A DNA stretch of 64,000 nucleotides, from NCBI RefSeq assembly GCF_000374545.1, contig NZ_KB894583.1:124001-188000 (forward strand), in the 5' to 3' direction. Positions 2,723 through 8,892 of this stretch are shown here, piece by piece. Position 1 is the stretch's first letter, and every line of letters begins with the position of its first letter. The position numbers and the translations under genes are program-made. Origin of the DNA: Anaeromusa acidaminophila DSM 3853. Its GTDB lineage: Bacteria; Bacillota; Negativicutes; Anaeromusales; Anaeromusaceae. Below the pieces are notes generated by a model. The model ran no database searches, was not told the DNA's origin, and saw only the letters and a program-made list of their open reading frames with translations.

Positions 2723-3175
2723 ATGGCGCGTTTAGAGTATCGTTTACTGGATGAAGCGAAAAACTATCCAGTACTATATGCGTATGAAAGCATTTCGCAG
2801 GGTGAAGTGGCGGCCCGCTTTATTTGTGATCGCTTTGTCAAGGAAAGCACGGCGTATGAGCGCACATCCTGCGCCATAGAACCCGATTGCTTTGTGATTT
2901 ATGTGCAGCCAGACGCTAAGGGGCGGGTTGTTTGGCCAACGGTGGAAACCAAGACGGCTGGTTTACCTTTAGAGCTTGCCGTTTGCGGTAACGGTTTGCT
3001 TTCGGCGCAGCGGCAATTGGTATTGTCTTTTTTGACCTATGAAGAGCTGCACCTGCAGCTGTTGGCTGACTACCGAATGTACCAAGGCGAGGAGTGGTTG
3101 AAGGTATCGGCGGAGTTGGATGAAGATCGTCGGGCCTATGTGTATTATATGGAGAAGGTGAAGGAGGGCGCATGA
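2723..3175 (+). CDS. Hypothetical protein (150 aa) in the ATP-grasp/DUF350 operon
   Basis: I do not recognise this family. The protein is soluble, with alternating beta-like and helical stretches, no signal peptide and no membrane segment. AAGGGAG precedes ATG 2723 at a good distance. Its stop codon overlaps the start of the lipoprotein gene (ATGA), implying translational coupling and a shared role with the lipoprotein and amide ligase that follow. It could be an accessory or scaffold protein for that pathway. Confidence 0.7.
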   Translation: MARLEYRLLDEAKNYPVLYAYESISQGEVAARFICDRFVKESTAYERTSCAIEPDCFVIYVQPDAKGRVVWPTVETKTAGLPLELAVCGNGLLSAQRQLVLSFLTYEELHLQLLADYRMYQGEEWLKVSAELDEDRRAYVYYMEKVKEGA

Positions 3176-3480
3176 AGAAACGTCATTGGGTAGTCGGGCT
3201 TTTTATCGCGGCTTCTTTGGCGGCAGGAGGCTGTTCGTCGTCGACGCAGCAGGCAAAAGAGGCGCCGGGAGATGACGATGAATTAGTGGAGTCCGGAACG
3301 ACTTCAGGGGGGCAGCGACAAGGCGGCGTAGCGCCGGCGCCGTATATTTACGGAGGTTCTCGTTATTTTGGCTCCGGCGGCGGAAGTGGCGGCGTTTCCG
3401 GTGATGGCGCGGCGACTTCCGGTATTTCTCAAGGCAAGGGTGGAATAGGCAGTCAGAGCGCTTCCTCGGGAGGTGGCTGA
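3172..3480 (+). CDS. Small Gly/Ser-rich lipoprotein
   Basis: 102 residues. A lipoprotein signal is clear: MKKRH, a hydrophobic stretch, then an AAGGC lipobox with the lipidated Cys near residue 21. The mature part is low-complexity and flexible, rich in Gly, Ser, Gln and Ala, and ends in SSGGG. It overlaps both neighbours (ATGA upstream, TGATG downstream). In position and character it matches the lipoproteins paired with YjfC/YgiC-type ligases in E. coli (YjfM/YgiB). The terminal glycines are of interest because the adjacent enzyme belongs to a family that amidates a C-terminal glycine. Whether it is the substrate is inference. Confidence 0.8.
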   Translation: MKKRHWVVGLFIAASLAAGGCSSSTQQAKEAPGDDDELVESGTTSGGQRQGGVAPAPYIYGGSRYFGSGGGSGGVSGDGAATSGISQGKGGIGSQSASSGGG

Positions 3481-4697
3481 TGGAGAGCTATGCGGTCCGT
3501 CGCGAACGCTGGTATGGGCCGTTGCGGGATCTGTTTTCCTGGGAAAAGATTGACGGAGAAGAGTATGCGTTAGCCTCCGGGACGCCTGTTTTTTCGCAGC
3601 AATGTCAGGAACTGCAGGCGGCGGCGGAAGGCTTAGCCGCCTTGTGGCATAAAGTGGCTTTGATCGTTTCGCAGGGAGATGTGCGGCTGTTGCGCTGGCT
3701 GGGCTTGCCAGCCGGTATGCAAGAAGCGGTGCGTGAGGGGTTGCAGCTGCCTTGGCTTACGGCCTTGGGTCGTTTTGATTTTGTTCAAACTGTTGCGGGC
3801 TGGAAAGTGTTGGAATATAACTGCGATACACCCAGCGGCGTAGTGGAAGCCTTGGCGGTGAATGGAAAGATTTGCGCTTGCGAAGGGCGAAAAAATCCAA
3901 ATGCCGCCGGCGAAGAACTGCTGCGTCAAGCCATTGCCGAATCGCTATATATAGCGCACCGCGCTGGTTTGGCCGGTGCGGCTGCGTTCAGCGCTTTAGG
4001 AAGCCATAGCGAAGATGCCGGTACGATGAAATACTGGCAATCTCTGGCGGCAGAAGGCTTGTTTGTACCGCTGGAAGAGCTGCGCTATGAAAGGGAGTCT
4101 TTGACTTCCTTGGTTTCGGGGGAGATTGGCTGTTGGTTTCGTCTTCATCCATGGGAGATTATGGTGAAAGAATGCGCTGTCGACGGGTTTCCGACAGGGA
4201 AGCGCGTGCTGGAGTTAGTGGCCGCCAAGAAACTCTTGGCGGTAAATCCGCCCTTGGCAGCCCTTGGTCAATCCAAAGCGTTGCAGGCTCTTATATGGCA
4301 GTTATATGAGGCGGAAGAGTTTTTGACGAAGCAGGAGCGGCAATTGGTGCAGACCTATATGCTGCCTACTTACCGTCAGAATGTGTTTTTAGGAAAAGTT
4401 TCGTATGTACGAAAACCTCTGTGGGGAAGAGAAGGCGGCGGCGTGACGCTGCATGCGGCGGACGGGAGTCTGCTTGCGGGAAGTCGCGGCGGCTGGCATG
4501 GAGCTGCTATCTATCAGCAAGCGGTGGAACTGGAACGTATGCAAGTGATGACGGAGAAGGGCTTGCAGGAAGGCCGGCGCCTTTGGGGCGTCTTTGTGGC
4601 GGGCGGCTCTTTCGCAGGCTTGTTGGTGCGTCTGGGCGCAGCCATTACTGACGACCAAGCTTGGATGACGCCGGTGTATTTGAGCGAGGAGGGATGA
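3480..4697 (+). CDS. Glutathionylspermidine synthetase-like ATP-grasp ligase (YjfC/YgiC type)
   Basis: 405 residues. Family members with the pre-ATP-grasp/ATP-grasp fold form an amide bond between a C-terminal Gly carboxylate and an amine; in authentic GspS these are glutathione and spermidine. Seen here: an N-terminal RRERWYGPL region, the LEYNCDTPSGVVEA block near residue 115 matching the family signature LExNxDxPxxxxEA, and a C-terminal ATP-grasp half. There is no amidase domain, so it is not a bifunctional GspS. The ATG overlaps the lipoprotein stop codon, and the DUF350 gene follows directly. The real substrate is unknown; local context suggests the lipoprotein. Confidence 0.82.
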   Translation: MESYAVRRERWYGPLRDLFSWEKIDGEEYALASGTPVFSQQCQELQAAAEGLAALWHKVALIVSQGDVRLLRWLGLPAGMQEAVREGLQLPWLTALGRFDFVQTVAGWKVLEYNCDTPSGVVEALAVNGKICACEGRKNPNAAGEELLRQAIAESLYIAHRAGLAGAAAFSALGSHSEDAGTMKYWQSLAAEGLFVPLEELRYERESLTSLVSGEIGCWFRLHPWEIMVKECAVDGFPTGKRVLELVAAKKLLAVNPPLAALGQSKALQALIWQLYEAEEFLTKQERQLVQTYMLPTYRQNVFLGKVSYVRKPLWGREGGGVTLHAADGSLLAGSRGGWHGAAIYQQAVELERMQVMTEKGLQEGRRLWGVFVAGGSFAGLLVRLGAAITDDQAWMTPVYLSEEG

Positions 4698-4699
4698 GG

Positions 4700-5146
4700 A
4701 TGATGATGTTAAACATGCAGGGGCAAATACCTCATGTCGTAAATTTTCTGCTATACCTTGCGGTGGCGCTGCCGCTTTTGGGAATCGGCGTTTGGCTTTT
4801 TGCCAGGCTGACTCCTTATAAGGAAGGCGAACTATTGCACAATGGCGCGCAAGACGGGATGGCCGGACGGGCGGCGGAAGCGGCGGCGCACGACTTGGGC
4901 GGCAAACTGTTGGGACTTACGTTGGTCTTGGCTTCCGCTATTTTTCATTCCGTGCATATTTGGGATTTACTCTTTTGGGGCGCTGTGGGTATTGTCAGCC
5001 AGGTGCTCGTGGCCAATCTTTTTGAAAGAATCACTCCATACCGGGTGGCGCAGGAAATTCCCAAAGGCAACGTGGCGGTGGGGATTTTTTCAGCCCGTCT
5101 CAGTGTGGCGGCGGGATTGCTTTTGGCGGCATTGATCAGCTATTAA
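4700..5146 (+). CDS. DUF350 (YjfL-like) membrane protein
   Basis: 149 residues with four predicted membrane helices in two related halves. A TPYKE motif after helix 2 and TPYRVAQEIPKGN after the second half reflect the internal duplication typical of DUF350. Several in-frame ATGs lie at 4694-4706; I chose 4700 because AGGAGG at 4687-4692 is seven bases upstream. It overlaps or abuts the ligase gene. DUF350 proteins regularly accompany GspS-like ligases (E. coli yjfL with yjfC) and their biochemical role is not established. Confidence 0.82.
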   Translation: MMMLNMQGQIPHVVNFLLYLAVALPLLGIGVWLFARLTPYKEGELLHNGAQDGMAGRAAEAAAHDLGGKLLGLTLVLASAIFHSVHIWDLLFWGAVGIVSQVLVANLFERITPYRVAQEIPKGNVAVGIFSARLSVAAGLLLAALISY

Positions 5147-5220
5147 GCGAGGAAATGATGCTTGGCTCACATACTTAGTCAGAATGGTCTTTTTTGCGTC
5201 AGTCTTTGTCAGAAAGCCTC

Positions 5221-5239
5221 GGCAGAGCGCCGCTCTGCC
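5221..5239. repeat. Palindromic hairpin in a 216-base spacer
   Basis: GGCAGAGCG, one base, then CGCTCTGCC. The surrounding 5147-5362 spacer also carries scattered GTCAG/CTGAC words in both orientations, but no T-run and no clear promoter. It could end the upstream operon or fold the next leader. Confidence 0.45.
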
Positions 5240-5362
5240 TGCGTTTTCTTTCGCGTCTGACGGAAAAATCCTCGCCCTGACGAAGCGTTCGCTCAAGTGT
5301 CATCTCCTCGAAATTTGATTGGCAGATGAGTTGTTTTAATTAGAAGTTGGAGGATGGATAAT

Positions 5363-5680: not shown

Positions 5681-7732
5681 ATGGCATACGAGCAGCGGAT
5701 AGTTTTTCGGCATCCCAAGGGGCTTCATACCCGGGTAGCGGCTATGGTGGTGCAGCGTTTCCAAGAACTCAGGCAGCGCTACGGCAGCGAGATTACCTTG
5801 CGTAAGGAAACTGGCAAAGTAGTGCCGGCCAATAATTTAATGCTTCTAGTGGGCCTAAAGGTGCGCGCTGGAGATGTGTTATGGGTTGGCGCTGATGGCG
5901 CTGAAGCGGGAGAAGCTGCGCAAGAGATGGCTGCGTTTTTGGAAGGGGATTTTTCTTTGGCGGCGGCCCCTGCCTGGCAGGGCATGGATGCCGTGTTGCA
6001 GGAGAATGCCTTTACGGCGGAACAGATTTTTCGCAGTATCGCCAGCGGCTTGATGGTTACGGATCAAGAGGACCGCATTACCGTGTTCAATCCGGCGGCG
6101 GAGCGCATTATGGGTGTGACTGCGGCGGAAGTCATCGGTCGCAAGGTGTTCGAAGCCATTCCTGGTTCTCGGTTGCATATTGTCAACCAGACGGGAGAAG
6201 CAGAGTTGGGGCAACGGCAGTTAACAGGGCGTTCGGTGACGGTTACCAATCGGACGCCGATTGTGATTGACGGCAAAGTTTGCGGCGCTGTAGCTGTTTT
6301 TGAGGATATTTCGATCTTAGAGCGCGTTTCCGGGGAATTGCAAGAGGTAAAGGAACTAAAAGAGCGCCTGCAGCTGATTTTGGAATCGGTGCAGGACGGC
6401 ATCTGCGTTTTTGATAAACAAGGTGTGATTACCTATGTGAATGATGCGTATGTGGCGATGTGCGGTGAGAAACGGGAAGACCTTTTGGGGCAGCGTGTAG
6501 GCGATATTTCTCCCGGTGGGGGGCGTAGTTTGATGCTGACAAGCGGCCAAGCGGTGCTGGGCAGCATCAGTCGCAAACGCAGCGGCGTGACGTTGATTTC
6601 GAATATTAATCCGATTTTTGTGGATGGCGCCTTGACTGGCGGTTTGTCGGTCAGTAAAAATACAACGGAACTGCAATTACTGGCGGATAAGCTGAACGAG
6701 GCGAATGCGCGGGCGGACTATTTGGAAGAAGAGTTGCTTCGTACTCGACGGCCTCATGCGGCGTTTCACAATTTCATTGGTCGCAGCGGCAAGGTGAAAG
6801 ATTGCCTGGCGATGGCTTCGAAAGCGGCGGCGGCGCAGGCTACGGTGCTCATACGAGGCGAAAGCGGCACCGGCAAGGAATTGGTTGCCGAAGGTATCCA
6901 TTATGCCAGCCCTCGTTCCCAGGGACCTTTTATCCGGGTTAATTGCGGCGCCATTCCTTCGGCGCTCTTGGAAAGCGAGCTTTTTGGCCATGAAAAAGGC
7001 GCTTTTACTGGAGCTGTGCGGCGGAAGCTGGGGCGATTTGAATTGGCTGACGGCGGCAGTCTGTTTTTGGATGAAATCGGCGAAATGGATAAGACTATGC
7101 AAGTGAAGCTGCTGCGAGCGCTGCAGCAACGGGAGATAGAACGTGTCGGCGGCGAAGAGACGGTGCGTGTGGATGTGCGAATTATTGCCGCTACCCATCG
7201 GGATCTGGAGGCCATGGTAGCTGCTGGAGACTTTCGGGAGGATTTGTATTATCGCTTGAATGTAGTACCGGTACTGTTGCCGCCTTTGCGGGAACGTAAA
7301 GAAGATATTCCTCTTTTGGCGGAATATTTTTTAGAAAAAGTTTCCCGGCGCGAAGGGTTTTCCTGCCAAGGGTTTCAACGGGAAGCGCTGGAAGCGTTTC
7401 AAGGATACAACTGGCCAGGAAATGTGAGGGAATTAGAGAATGTAGTAGAGCGTATGGTGACGCTGACCGAAGGGGTTCAGTTGGGCTTGGAGGATTTACC
7501 TCTCTATTTGCGCAAGGAAATGGGCGTGGAACCGGTTTTGCCAGCTTTGCGACAGGAAGAGCCGCTGTTGCCCTGGACAGAGTATGAAAAAAATATCATT
7601 GCTTTAGCGTTAGAACGCTGCGGCAGTTATAATGCAGCAGGTAAGGCGCTAGGTTTGACGCATAAGACGATTGCGGCGAAGGCGCGCAAGTATGGCTTGG
7701 AAAAACAGACATCTTGGGTAAAAACGGACTAA
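5681..7732 (+). CDS. Sigma-54-dependent activator with N-terminal HPr-like domain (dha regulator)
   Basis: 683 residues. Order of domains: HPr-like domain at about 1-90 with the phospho-acceptor motif KGLHTR (His16); two PAS-like domains at about 110-215 and 225-335; AAA+ core at about 365-600 with Walker A GESGTGKE at 393 and the sigma-54-contacting GAFTGA at 440; and a Fis-type helix-turn-helix at the C-terminus (NAAGKALGLTHKTIAAKA). It lies directly upstream of a sigma-54 promoter and dhaKLM-HPr-EI, so it is very likely their activator. The retained His suggests PTS phosphorylation tunes its activity. E. coli DhaR instead senses DhaK/DhaL through a GAF-PAS region. GCGGAGG precedes the ATG at good spacing. 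Confidence 0.9.
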   Translation: MAYEQRIVFRHPKGLHTRVAAMVVQRFQELRQRYGSEITLRKETGKVVPANNLMLLVGLKVRAGDVLWVGADGAEAGEAAQEMAAFLEGDFSLAAAPAWQGMDAVLQENAFTAEQIFRSIASGLMVTDQEDRITVFNPAAERIMGVTAAEVIGRKVFEAIPGSRLHIVNQTGEAELGQRQLTGRSVTVTNRTPIVIDGKVCGAVAVFEDISILERVSGELQEVKELKERLQLILESVQDGICVFDKQGVITYVNDAYVAMCGEKREDLLGQRVGDISPGGGRSLMLTSGQAVLGSISRKRSGVTLISNINPIFVDGALTGGLSVSKNTTELQLLADKLNEANARADYLEEELLRTRRPHAAFHNFIGRSGKVKDCLAMASKAAAAQATVLIRGESGTGKELVAEGIHYASPRSQGPFIRVNCGAIPSALLESELFGHEKGAFTGAVRRKLGRFELADGGSLFLDEIGEMDKTMQVKLLRALQQREIERVGGEETVRVDVRIIAATHRDLEAMVAAGDFREDLYYRLNVVPVLLPPLRERKEDIPLLAEYFLEKVSRREGFSCQGFQREALEAFQGYNWPGNVRELENVVERMVTLTEGVQLGLEDLPLYLRKEMGVEPVLPALRQEEPLLPWTEYEKNIIALALERCGSYNAAGKALGLTHKTIAAKARKYGLEKQTSWVKTD

Positions 7733-7780: not shown

Positions 7781-7822
7781 AGAATTAAAAGGAAAGGGGG
7801 CTTAGTTGCAGCAAAAACGCGT

Positions 7823-7838
7823 TGGCATGGGTTTTGCT
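7823..7838 (+). promoter_or_regulatory. Sigma-54 (-24/-12) promoter of the dha operon
   Basis: TGGCATGGGTTTTGCT matches the consensus TGGCACG-N4-TTGCT, with GG at 7824-7825 and GC at 7836-7837 at exact spacing. Transcription should start near 7849, about 45 bases before dhaK. Confidence 0.88.
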
Positions 7839-7861
7839 AATATACTCTACGGAAACGGCAA

Positions 7862-7876
7862 GCCGGTCAGACCGGC
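7862..7876. repeat. Inverted repeat in the dhaK leader
   Basis: GCCGGT-CAG-ACCGGC, just downstream of the expected start site. It could be a small RNA hairpin or an operator; nothing decides between them. Confidence 0.4.
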
Positions 7877-7893
7877 AGAAGGGAGAATTAAGG

Positions 7894-8892
7894 ATGAAAA
7901 AAGTCATTAATGTACCCGAGCAAGTTGTAGAGGAAATGCTTCAGGGGGTTGTCGCGGCACATCCTCAATATGTACGTCGTGTAGAGGGTTTTGACGTTAT
8001 TGTGCGCGCCCAAGCTCCTGTACAGGGTAAAGTGGCCTTGGTCAGCGGCGGCGGCAGCGGCCATGAACCTTCTCATGGCGGTTTTGTCGGTAAAGGGATG
8101 TTGGACGGAGCGGTAGCCGGAGCGGTATTTACGTCTCCGACTCCGGATCAAGTGTATGAAGCGGTGAAAGCGGTAGATGGCGGCAAAGGCGTACTACTGG
8201 TCATCAAAAACTACACTGGCGATATTATGAACTTTGAAATGGCTGCGGAAATGGCGGATGCCGAAGGCATTAAAGTAGAAAAAGTAGTTGTCAATGATGA
8301 CGTTGCGGTAGAGAATAGCACGTGGACTACTGGTCGTCGCGGCATCGCCGGTACGGTGTTTGTGCATAAAATTGCTGGCGCTAAAGCGGAAACAGGCGCT
8401 TCGCTGGAGGAAGTGAAAGCGGTCGCGGATAAGGTTGTCGCCAATGTTCGTTCCATGGGCATGGCTCTGGCGCCTTGCACCGTACCGGCTGCAGGCAAGC
8501 CTAGCTTTGTCTTGGGCGAAGACGAAATGGAAATTGGCATGGGCATTCACGGCGAACCGGGAACGCATCGGGAAACTGTGAAAAAAGCGGATGAAATTGC
8601 AGCGCATTTGCTGGATAAAATTTTAGCTGATATCACTTTGTCCGCAGGAGATGAAGTGGCTGTGCTGGTCAACGGCCTAGGTGCTACGCCGTTGATGGAG
8701 CTGTACATTGTGAACCGTAAAGTGGCGGAAACTTTGGCTGCTAAAGGCATCAAAACCGCCAAGACTTTTGTAGGAAATTACATGACCTCTCTAGAAATGG
8801 CCGGATTCTCCATTACATTGTTGAAATTGGATGCGGAATTAAAAGAGTTGCTGTTGGCCCCGGCGGATACGCCGGCTTTGGTGCAGTTTTAA
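7894..8892 (+). CDS. dhaK: Dihydroxyacetone kinase, Dha-binding subunit DhaK
   Basis: 332 residues, normal family length. DhaK binds dihydroxyacetone covalently through a histidine and presents it for phosphorylation by DhaL-ADP. Seen: GGGSGHEPSHGGFVGKGML near residue 55, and the substrate-binding His219 in GMGIHGEPG. The ATG at 7894 follows AAGGGAG; an earlier in-frame codon at 7822 lies within the sigma-54 promoter and can be excluded. First gene of dhaK-dhaL-dhaM-ptsH-ptsI. The product, dihydroxyacetone phosphate, enters glycolysis. Confidence 0.96.
   Translation: MKKVINVPEQVVEEMLQGVVAAHPQYVRRVEGFDVIVRAQAPVQGKVALVSGGGSGHEPSHGGFVGKGMLDGAVAGAVFTSPTPDQVYEAVKAVDGGKGVLLVIKNYTGDIMNFEMAAEMADAEGIKVEKVVVNDDVAVENSTWTTGRRGIAGTVFVHKIAGAKAETGASLEEVKAVADKVVANVRSMGMALAPCTVPAAGKPSFVLGEDEMEIGMGIHGEPGTHRETVKKADEIAAHLLDKILADITLSAGDEVAVLVNGLGATPLMELYIVNRKVAETLAAKGIKTAKTFVGNYMTSLEMAGFSITLLKLDAELKELLLAPADTPALVQF

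Follow-up and report, generated by a model that had tools for sequence, protein, structure and literature searches.

At nearly every locus that we sampled, a ligase resembling YjfC of E. coli is encoded together with an exported protein carrying a Ser/Gly-rich C-terminal tail, and the last residue of this tail is by far its most constrained position: it is Gly or Ser, and Glu in one clade. We studied this pairing starting from a 64,000-nucleotide stretch of the Anaeromusa acidaminophila DSM 3853 genome (class Negativicutes; contig NZ_KB894583.1), the whole of which is referred to here as the window. On balance we think it probable that the YjfC-like ligase amidates the C-terminal carboxylate of the candidate tail with a polyamine before the protein is exported.

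The operon and its ligase

The genes of ORF-A, the lipoprotein, the ligase and the DUF350 protein overlap by 1-4 nt at all three junctions and form one operon (Table 1). A preliminary description of this DNA had reported three overlapping genes, coding for a 102-residue lipoprotein ending in SSGGG, a GspS-type ligase lacking the amidase half and a DUF350 protein, and this description proved to be accurate. The likely start of the DUF350 gene is the ATG at 4694, which overlaps the ligase stop codon (ATGA) and gives a protein of 150 aa, rather than the TTG at 4661.

Table 1. Features of the operon and its surroundings (positions counted from the first nucleotide of the window)
Feature	Position	Strand	Remark
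ORF-A, 150 aa, orphan, predicted intracellular (LEYRLLDE...)	2723-3175	+	without Pfam match
Lipoprotein, 102 aa, proposed substrate	3172-3480	+	lipobox AAGGC with Cys21
Conserved C-terminal tail GKGGIGSQSASSGGG, residues 88-102 of the lipoprotein	3433-3477	+	KGGIG-type core; G/S terminus common across phyla
GGAGGTG, Shine-Dalgarno sequence of the ligase gene, within the tail Gly codons	3469-3475	+	sequence
GspS-type ATP-grasp ligase (YjfC/YgiC-like), 405 aa, without amidase domain	3480-4697	+	PF03738, 154 bits
DUF350 membrane protein (YjfL-like), 150 aa	4694-5146	+	PF03994, 107.3 bits, above the cut-off
Possible terminator: GC-rich hairpin followed by a T-rich tail	5221-5239	+	sits in a repeat with ~40 genome copies

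The intergenic element downstream of the operon (5150-5310) contains GC-rich hairpins and has ~40 similar copies in the genome, which are 72-92% identical; an element of this type is also found upstream of the operon in a sister species (locus L037). Farther downstream the window encodes a sigma-54 activator (5681-7732) that combines an HPr-like domain (PF00381) at its N-terminus with two PAS domains and an AAA+ domain, and just downstream of it lies a gene similar to that of a dihydroxyacetone kinase subunit (7822-8892).

The ligase matches PF03738 (GSP_synth) with 154 bits, the cut-off being 29.3, and the match covers residues 19-399 of 405. According to the Pfam profiles and its length of 405 aa, the protein consists of the ligase domain only, the N-terminal amidase domain of GspSA being absent. 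The closest fold to its AlphaFold model (pLDDT 93) is that of YjfC (7uk6; Z 43.2, rmsd 2.3, 359 residues aligned, 25% identity); the Z score was 38.4 with GspSA (2ioa) and 37.2 with YgiC, and RimK and D-Ala ligases were among the distant fold matches. The window ligase keeps R98, D100, E112, N114, K312, R317, E318, Q346 and R384, residues that do not vary across a range from E. coli to Cyanobacteria. We take the first four to be the equivalents of GspSA R316, D318, E330 and N332, and an alignment with GspSA agrees with this pairing. The signature DTPS is close to DTPT of YjfC and differs from DSAS of GspSA. The ligase is 86-89% identical in the three other genomes of the genus, and it is conserved far beyond the genus; the nearest named relative, judged by the ligase, is Negativicutes bacterium INTA.CYC.032 (89% identity).

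YgiC and YjfC of E. coli are reported to be peptide-spermidine ligases (PMID 36745518), and a second paper, as cited by others, states that YgiC does not have GspS activity. The RefSeq product names of YjfC and YgiC are also peptide-spermidine ligases. The E. coli yjfL/M/C genes had been described as a set of similar composition, uncharacterised as a pathway; the similarity stands, but the pathway is less unknown than that, because YjfC and YgiC are reported to have this activity. The activity is one seen in vitro; to our knowledge no natural substrate has been assigned to YgiC or YjfC, and we found none in the literature searched. By analogy with the reported activity of the E. coli homologues, the window ligase may also be a peptide-spermidine ligase; its own genome encodes SpeE (226 bits) and SpeD (114 bits).

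The tail proteins and their last residue

The N-terminus of the lipoprotein is basic; the protein also has a hydrophobic stretch and the lipobox LAAGGC (Cys21), and ends with GKGGIGSQSASSGGG. It did not match any Pfam profile, PF06693 (DUF1190) included, and DUF1190 was found in 0/149 genomes of the phylum Bacillota and not in the lipoprotein's own genome, thus membership in this family was rejected. The tail type of the DUF1190 proteins YgiB and YjfM, a [KR]GG[FYI]G core and a small last residue, is present in the lipoprotein. Except for a weak chance match, no second tail protein was found elsewhere in its own genome.

A family search in Negativicutes detected PF03738 in 63 of 300 genomes, and at all 63 loci the ligase gene is adjoined, on the same strand, by the gene of an exported protein whose tail is rich in Ser and Gly. 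These tails are of the type KGGIGSS..GGGG in the clade of the window and KSGFGSAGARSSSS in the other clade, and the neighbours of the E. coli ligases have the C-termini SRGGYGRSSSARGHWGG (YjfM) and TRGGFGES...SSRSMGG (YgiB). Adjacent tail proteins were seen at 17 loci from Pseudomonadota, Actinomycetota, Deinococcota, Cyanobacteriota and Bacilli, including E. coli YgiB/YjfM; like tails occur in Rhizobium, Vibrio, Pseudomonas, Sulfitobacter, Acinetobacter, Asticcacaulis, Tsukamurella, Deinococcus, five Bacilli and two Cyanobacteria. Scanning the GTDB genomes added 80 loci from Bacillota, 77 of them with an adjacent tail protein (69 detected automatically, 8 by eye). Loci L203 and L223, which are full-length, have no tail protein between ORF-A and the ligase; at the third remaining locus, L179, the sequence available upstream is too short and there is a run of N close by. 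Automatic detection relied on Ser/Gly content, which biases the tally of last residues slightly; the eight tails found without this criterion also end with G or S.

The usual core of the tail, in the Ser/Gly-rich tails of loci sampled from five phyla, is [KRHS][GS]G[FILYW]G. The Lys of the core was considered as an acceptor and rejected, because Arg, His or Ser frequently takes its place. The motif [KRHS][GSTA]G[FILWYVM]G was found in the last ~30 residues of 64/77 distinct partners, compared with 10/1790 other ORFs of the same DNA, and three of these ten turned out to be additional tail proteins that accompany the same ligase (L061-L063). At these three loci there are two tail proteins per ligase, one directly upstream, the other (186 aa, ending with KSGFGSAGARSSAS) ~1.6 kb downstream. 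The bodies of the partners vary while the tail is constant: the body is DUF1190 in Pseudomonadota and not DUF1190 in Bacillota. The anchors vary as well, most partners have a lipobox, and an N-terminal TM segment is found in the second Negativicutes clade and at three loci of the first. We did not find a tail partner for the PF03738 relatives that adjoin a gamma-glutamylcysteine-ligase-like gene (L146-L150, this gene having been identified by eye), for the double-length PF03738 ligases (L134, L135, L140) or for a distant homologue from Azospirillum, therefore the tail accompanies the YjfC-like enzymes and not the whole family. The double-length proteins have ~820-860 aa and consist of two ligase halves in tandem.

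The last residue of 125 distinct tails is G in 62, S in 59 and E in 4, the tails with E belonging to one clade, whereas the remaining positions of the tail tolerate 6-15 residue types. A tree of 156 labelled ligases shows 14 changes in total at position -1, one of which left the G/S pair, as compared with 10-26 at positions -2 to -15. The core motif was lost in Shimazuella and Thermoflavimicrobium, where an SSGG or SFGG end was retained. The preliminary description had proposed an alignment of the paired lipoproteins, asking whether the C-terminal Gly is invariant; with these numbers, and by the refuting condition given in that description, a strictly invariant Gly had to be given up. Its main idea is borne out: ligase and exported protein are coupled, and it is the C-terminal end of the latter that has been kept fixed in evolution. 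The data fit a C-terminal carboxylate that has to enter the active site, not a strict Gly rule. It must be noted that in a low-complexity tail rich in Ser and Gly, ends with G or S are less surprising in themselves.

Parallel and related systems

Operons made up of genes for PspA, DUF4178, DUF350, a lipoprotein and a membrane-fused spermidine-synthase-like enzyme have been described (PMC11237479). DUF4247 lipoproteins encoded beside such an enzyme in Bacillota (L118-L121, L235-L241) all end with GK (11/11), usually as RGGGxxxGK, and four DUF4247 proteins without an adjoining enzyme end with RRR or GRR. In an Alteromonas operon (enzyme, SpeD, DUF4178, DUF350) an unrelated lipoprotein of 510 aa ends with PSSGK (L244:8692-10224); on the Ensifer and Burkholderia plasmids no such lipoprotein was seen adjoining the enzyme. 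An aminopropyltransferase needs an amine as acceptor and a ligase needs a carboxylate, thus the GK and the G/S ends fit their respective enzymes. If the analogy holds, the GK ends would lend independent support to the C-terminus as the reactive site. It is a real possibility, somewhat short of probable, that the ligase and the membrane-fused aminopropyltransferase each add a polyamine-like group to the C-terminal residue of an envelope lipoprotein, as an amide on Gly/Ser in one case and as N-aminopropyl on Lys in the other, and that the end of the lipoprotein evolved to suit the enzyme. If both enzymes do modify lipoprotein ends, C-terminal modification of proteins in the bacterial envelope would be widespread and would form a class that has gone unrecognised.

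It is instructive to compare the window operon with the known systems. With the operons just mentioned (PMC11237479) it has in common DUF350, a lipoprotein with a conserved Gly-rich end and an enzyme of polyamine type, but there an aminopropyltransferase goes with a Lys (GK) end, whereas in the window a ligase goes with a G/S end. The likeness to E. coli YjfLMC/YgiBC extends to the ligase fold (Z 43.2 and 37.2), the catalytic residues, the DUF350 neighbour of the yjf set, and the exported neighbours with an RGGYG/RGGFG core and a GG end. Unlike in the DUF1190 proteins YjfM and YgiB, the body of the window lipoprotein is not DUF1190; in Negativicutes ORF-A stands where E. coli has DUF2170/PspA/DUF2491, and sequence identity to E. 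coli is just 22-25%. GspSA and trypanothione synthetase share with the window ligase the ATP-grasp ligase half and the residues of the R-x-D / E-x-N / KP..RE motifs, but the window ligase has no amidase half, has DTP[ST] instead of DSAS, lacks a glutathione partner and is paired with a tail protein. A spermidine amide at a C-terminal Gly is formed in eukaryotic SUMO-spermidine conjugation (PMC12270671), which, in contrast to the window system, uses E1/E2 chemistry and unrelated proteins. The enzyme, DUF350 and this type of operon are already known. We did not find the shared tail, the cross-phylum rule of a terminal G/S or the GK counterpart in the searchable literature; the study on the YgiC/YjfC ligases may contain a part of this.

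Proposed modification of the tail and competing readings

We propose that, using ATP, the ligase would activate the carboxylate at the C-terminal end of the lipoprotein tail and link it to the amine of a polyamine, spermidine being the likeliest. The Gly/Ser-rich tail, its [KRHS][GS]G[FILYW]G core included, would be the arm that the ligase recognises, and its small last residue would enter the active site. The difficulty with topology that had been raised at the outset, namely that the lipoprotein is exported, is borne out: each tail protein has a single hydrophobic segment, at its N-terminus, which puts the tail outside the membrane, and the ligase is cytoplasmic; in a simple hydropathy scan most of the proteins did not show a second TM segment that would return the tail inside. 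With the tail exported and the ligase in the cytoplasm, modification would need to precede export. The completed preprotein would probably be modified in the cytoplasm, ahead of Sec export and lipidation, and the product would be a membrane-anchored envelope protein with a polycationic C-terminal cap. The conservation of the tail provides, for each genome, a candidate substrate of the YgiC/YjfC-type ligases, down to the residue. If the proposal is true, envelope lipoproteins of bacteria carry polyamine caps, and polyamine metabolism would be tied to the envelope-stress (PspA, DUF350) operons that contain these genes.

The ligase could, alternatively, modify the C-terminus of the tail with a different amine (an amino acid, putrescine, ethanolamine or an amine of the envelope), or the tail could be a docking arm and the product a small molecule. 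ATP-grasp ligases accept varied amines, as illustrated by RimK and the D-Ala ligases among the distant folds, and DUF350 and ORF-A are not known to have a particular role. We nevertheless regard this alternative as unlikely, since the closest fold is that of YjfC, a reported user of spermidine, SpeD and SpeE are present in the genome, and the parallel SpeE-type systems likewise indicate polyamine chemistry.

The Gly codons of the tail also make up a strong Shine-Dalgarno sequence (GGAGGTG), therefore a rival reason for the terminal Gly was tested: it could be a mere by-product of the codons GGA GGT GGC serving as Shine-Dalgarno sequence for the ligase gene that overlaps the tail, the G/S ending being otherwise due to low-complexity drift. 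GGAGGTG stands immediately before the ligase ATG in the window, and in the 80-locus set the tail genes located at most 14 nt from the ligase end with G in 30, S in 8 and E in 2 cases, those farther away with S in 27 cases and G in one. However, when the tail gene is more than 14 nt off, downstream of the ligase or remote, 41/41 tails still end with G or S (7 with Gly), and close-gap tail genes with Ser ends use codons such as TCG/TCC, which are not part of a Shine-Dalgarno sequence. A test of gap against Gly corrected for relatedness showed no association (12 independent pairs, p ~1), and drift in a G/S-rich tail would not fix position -1 alone so strongly. On account of the far-gap loci and the independent pairs, the Shine-Dalgarno sequence was rejected as the only reason for ends with G or S, and we consider this explanation as a whole quite improbable; gene overlap may favour Gly over Ser, which does not explain the G/S rule. 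It is very improbable that the last residue is held for some other reason (avoidance of C-terminal degradation signals, binding to DUF350 or to a protease) with the ligase acting elsewhere: DUF350 occurs in both the ligase and the aminopropyltransferase systems, thus DUF350 might be what reads a shared tail, but many ligase/tail pairs keep the tail without an adjoining DUF350 gene (46/62 have one), and the terminal residue tracks the type of the enzyme, G/S with the ligase and K with the SpeE-like enzyme.

In the polyamine amidation that we favour, DUF350 and ORF-A would be accessory factors of an envelope system. DUF350 and a DUF2157-like protein had been suggested as membrane partners. The first suggestion agrees with the frequency of the DUF350 gene, found at 70/80 and 46/62 of the related loci. 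The DUF2157-like gene (1648-2703) scored 26.9 bits with PF09925 (cut-off 32.4) and lies beside the ligase at 1/80 and 3/62 loci, all of the same genus; because it was found there in this genus only, it was rejected as a conserved partner. ORF-A is part of the conserved set at 72/80 named loci and at 18/62 Negativicutes loci. None of its 56 orthologues had a Pfam match above chance. The AlphaFold model of ORF-A (pLDDT 91, pTM 0.87) is beta-rich, with two similar beta-alpha-beta halves, and no confident match was found for it in the PDB, the best one (Z 4.6, to a part of MrfA) being unconvincing. Comparison of ORF-A with DUF2491, DUF4178 and DUF2170 (E. coli YjfK, E. coli YjfI and a DUF4178 protein) by hhalign, with a single sequence on one side, gave probabilities of at most 0.2%. 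The ORF-A family is widespread beside these ligases in Bacillota, and its conserved residues are E28, R32, E84, W125, D133, E134, R136 and Y142.
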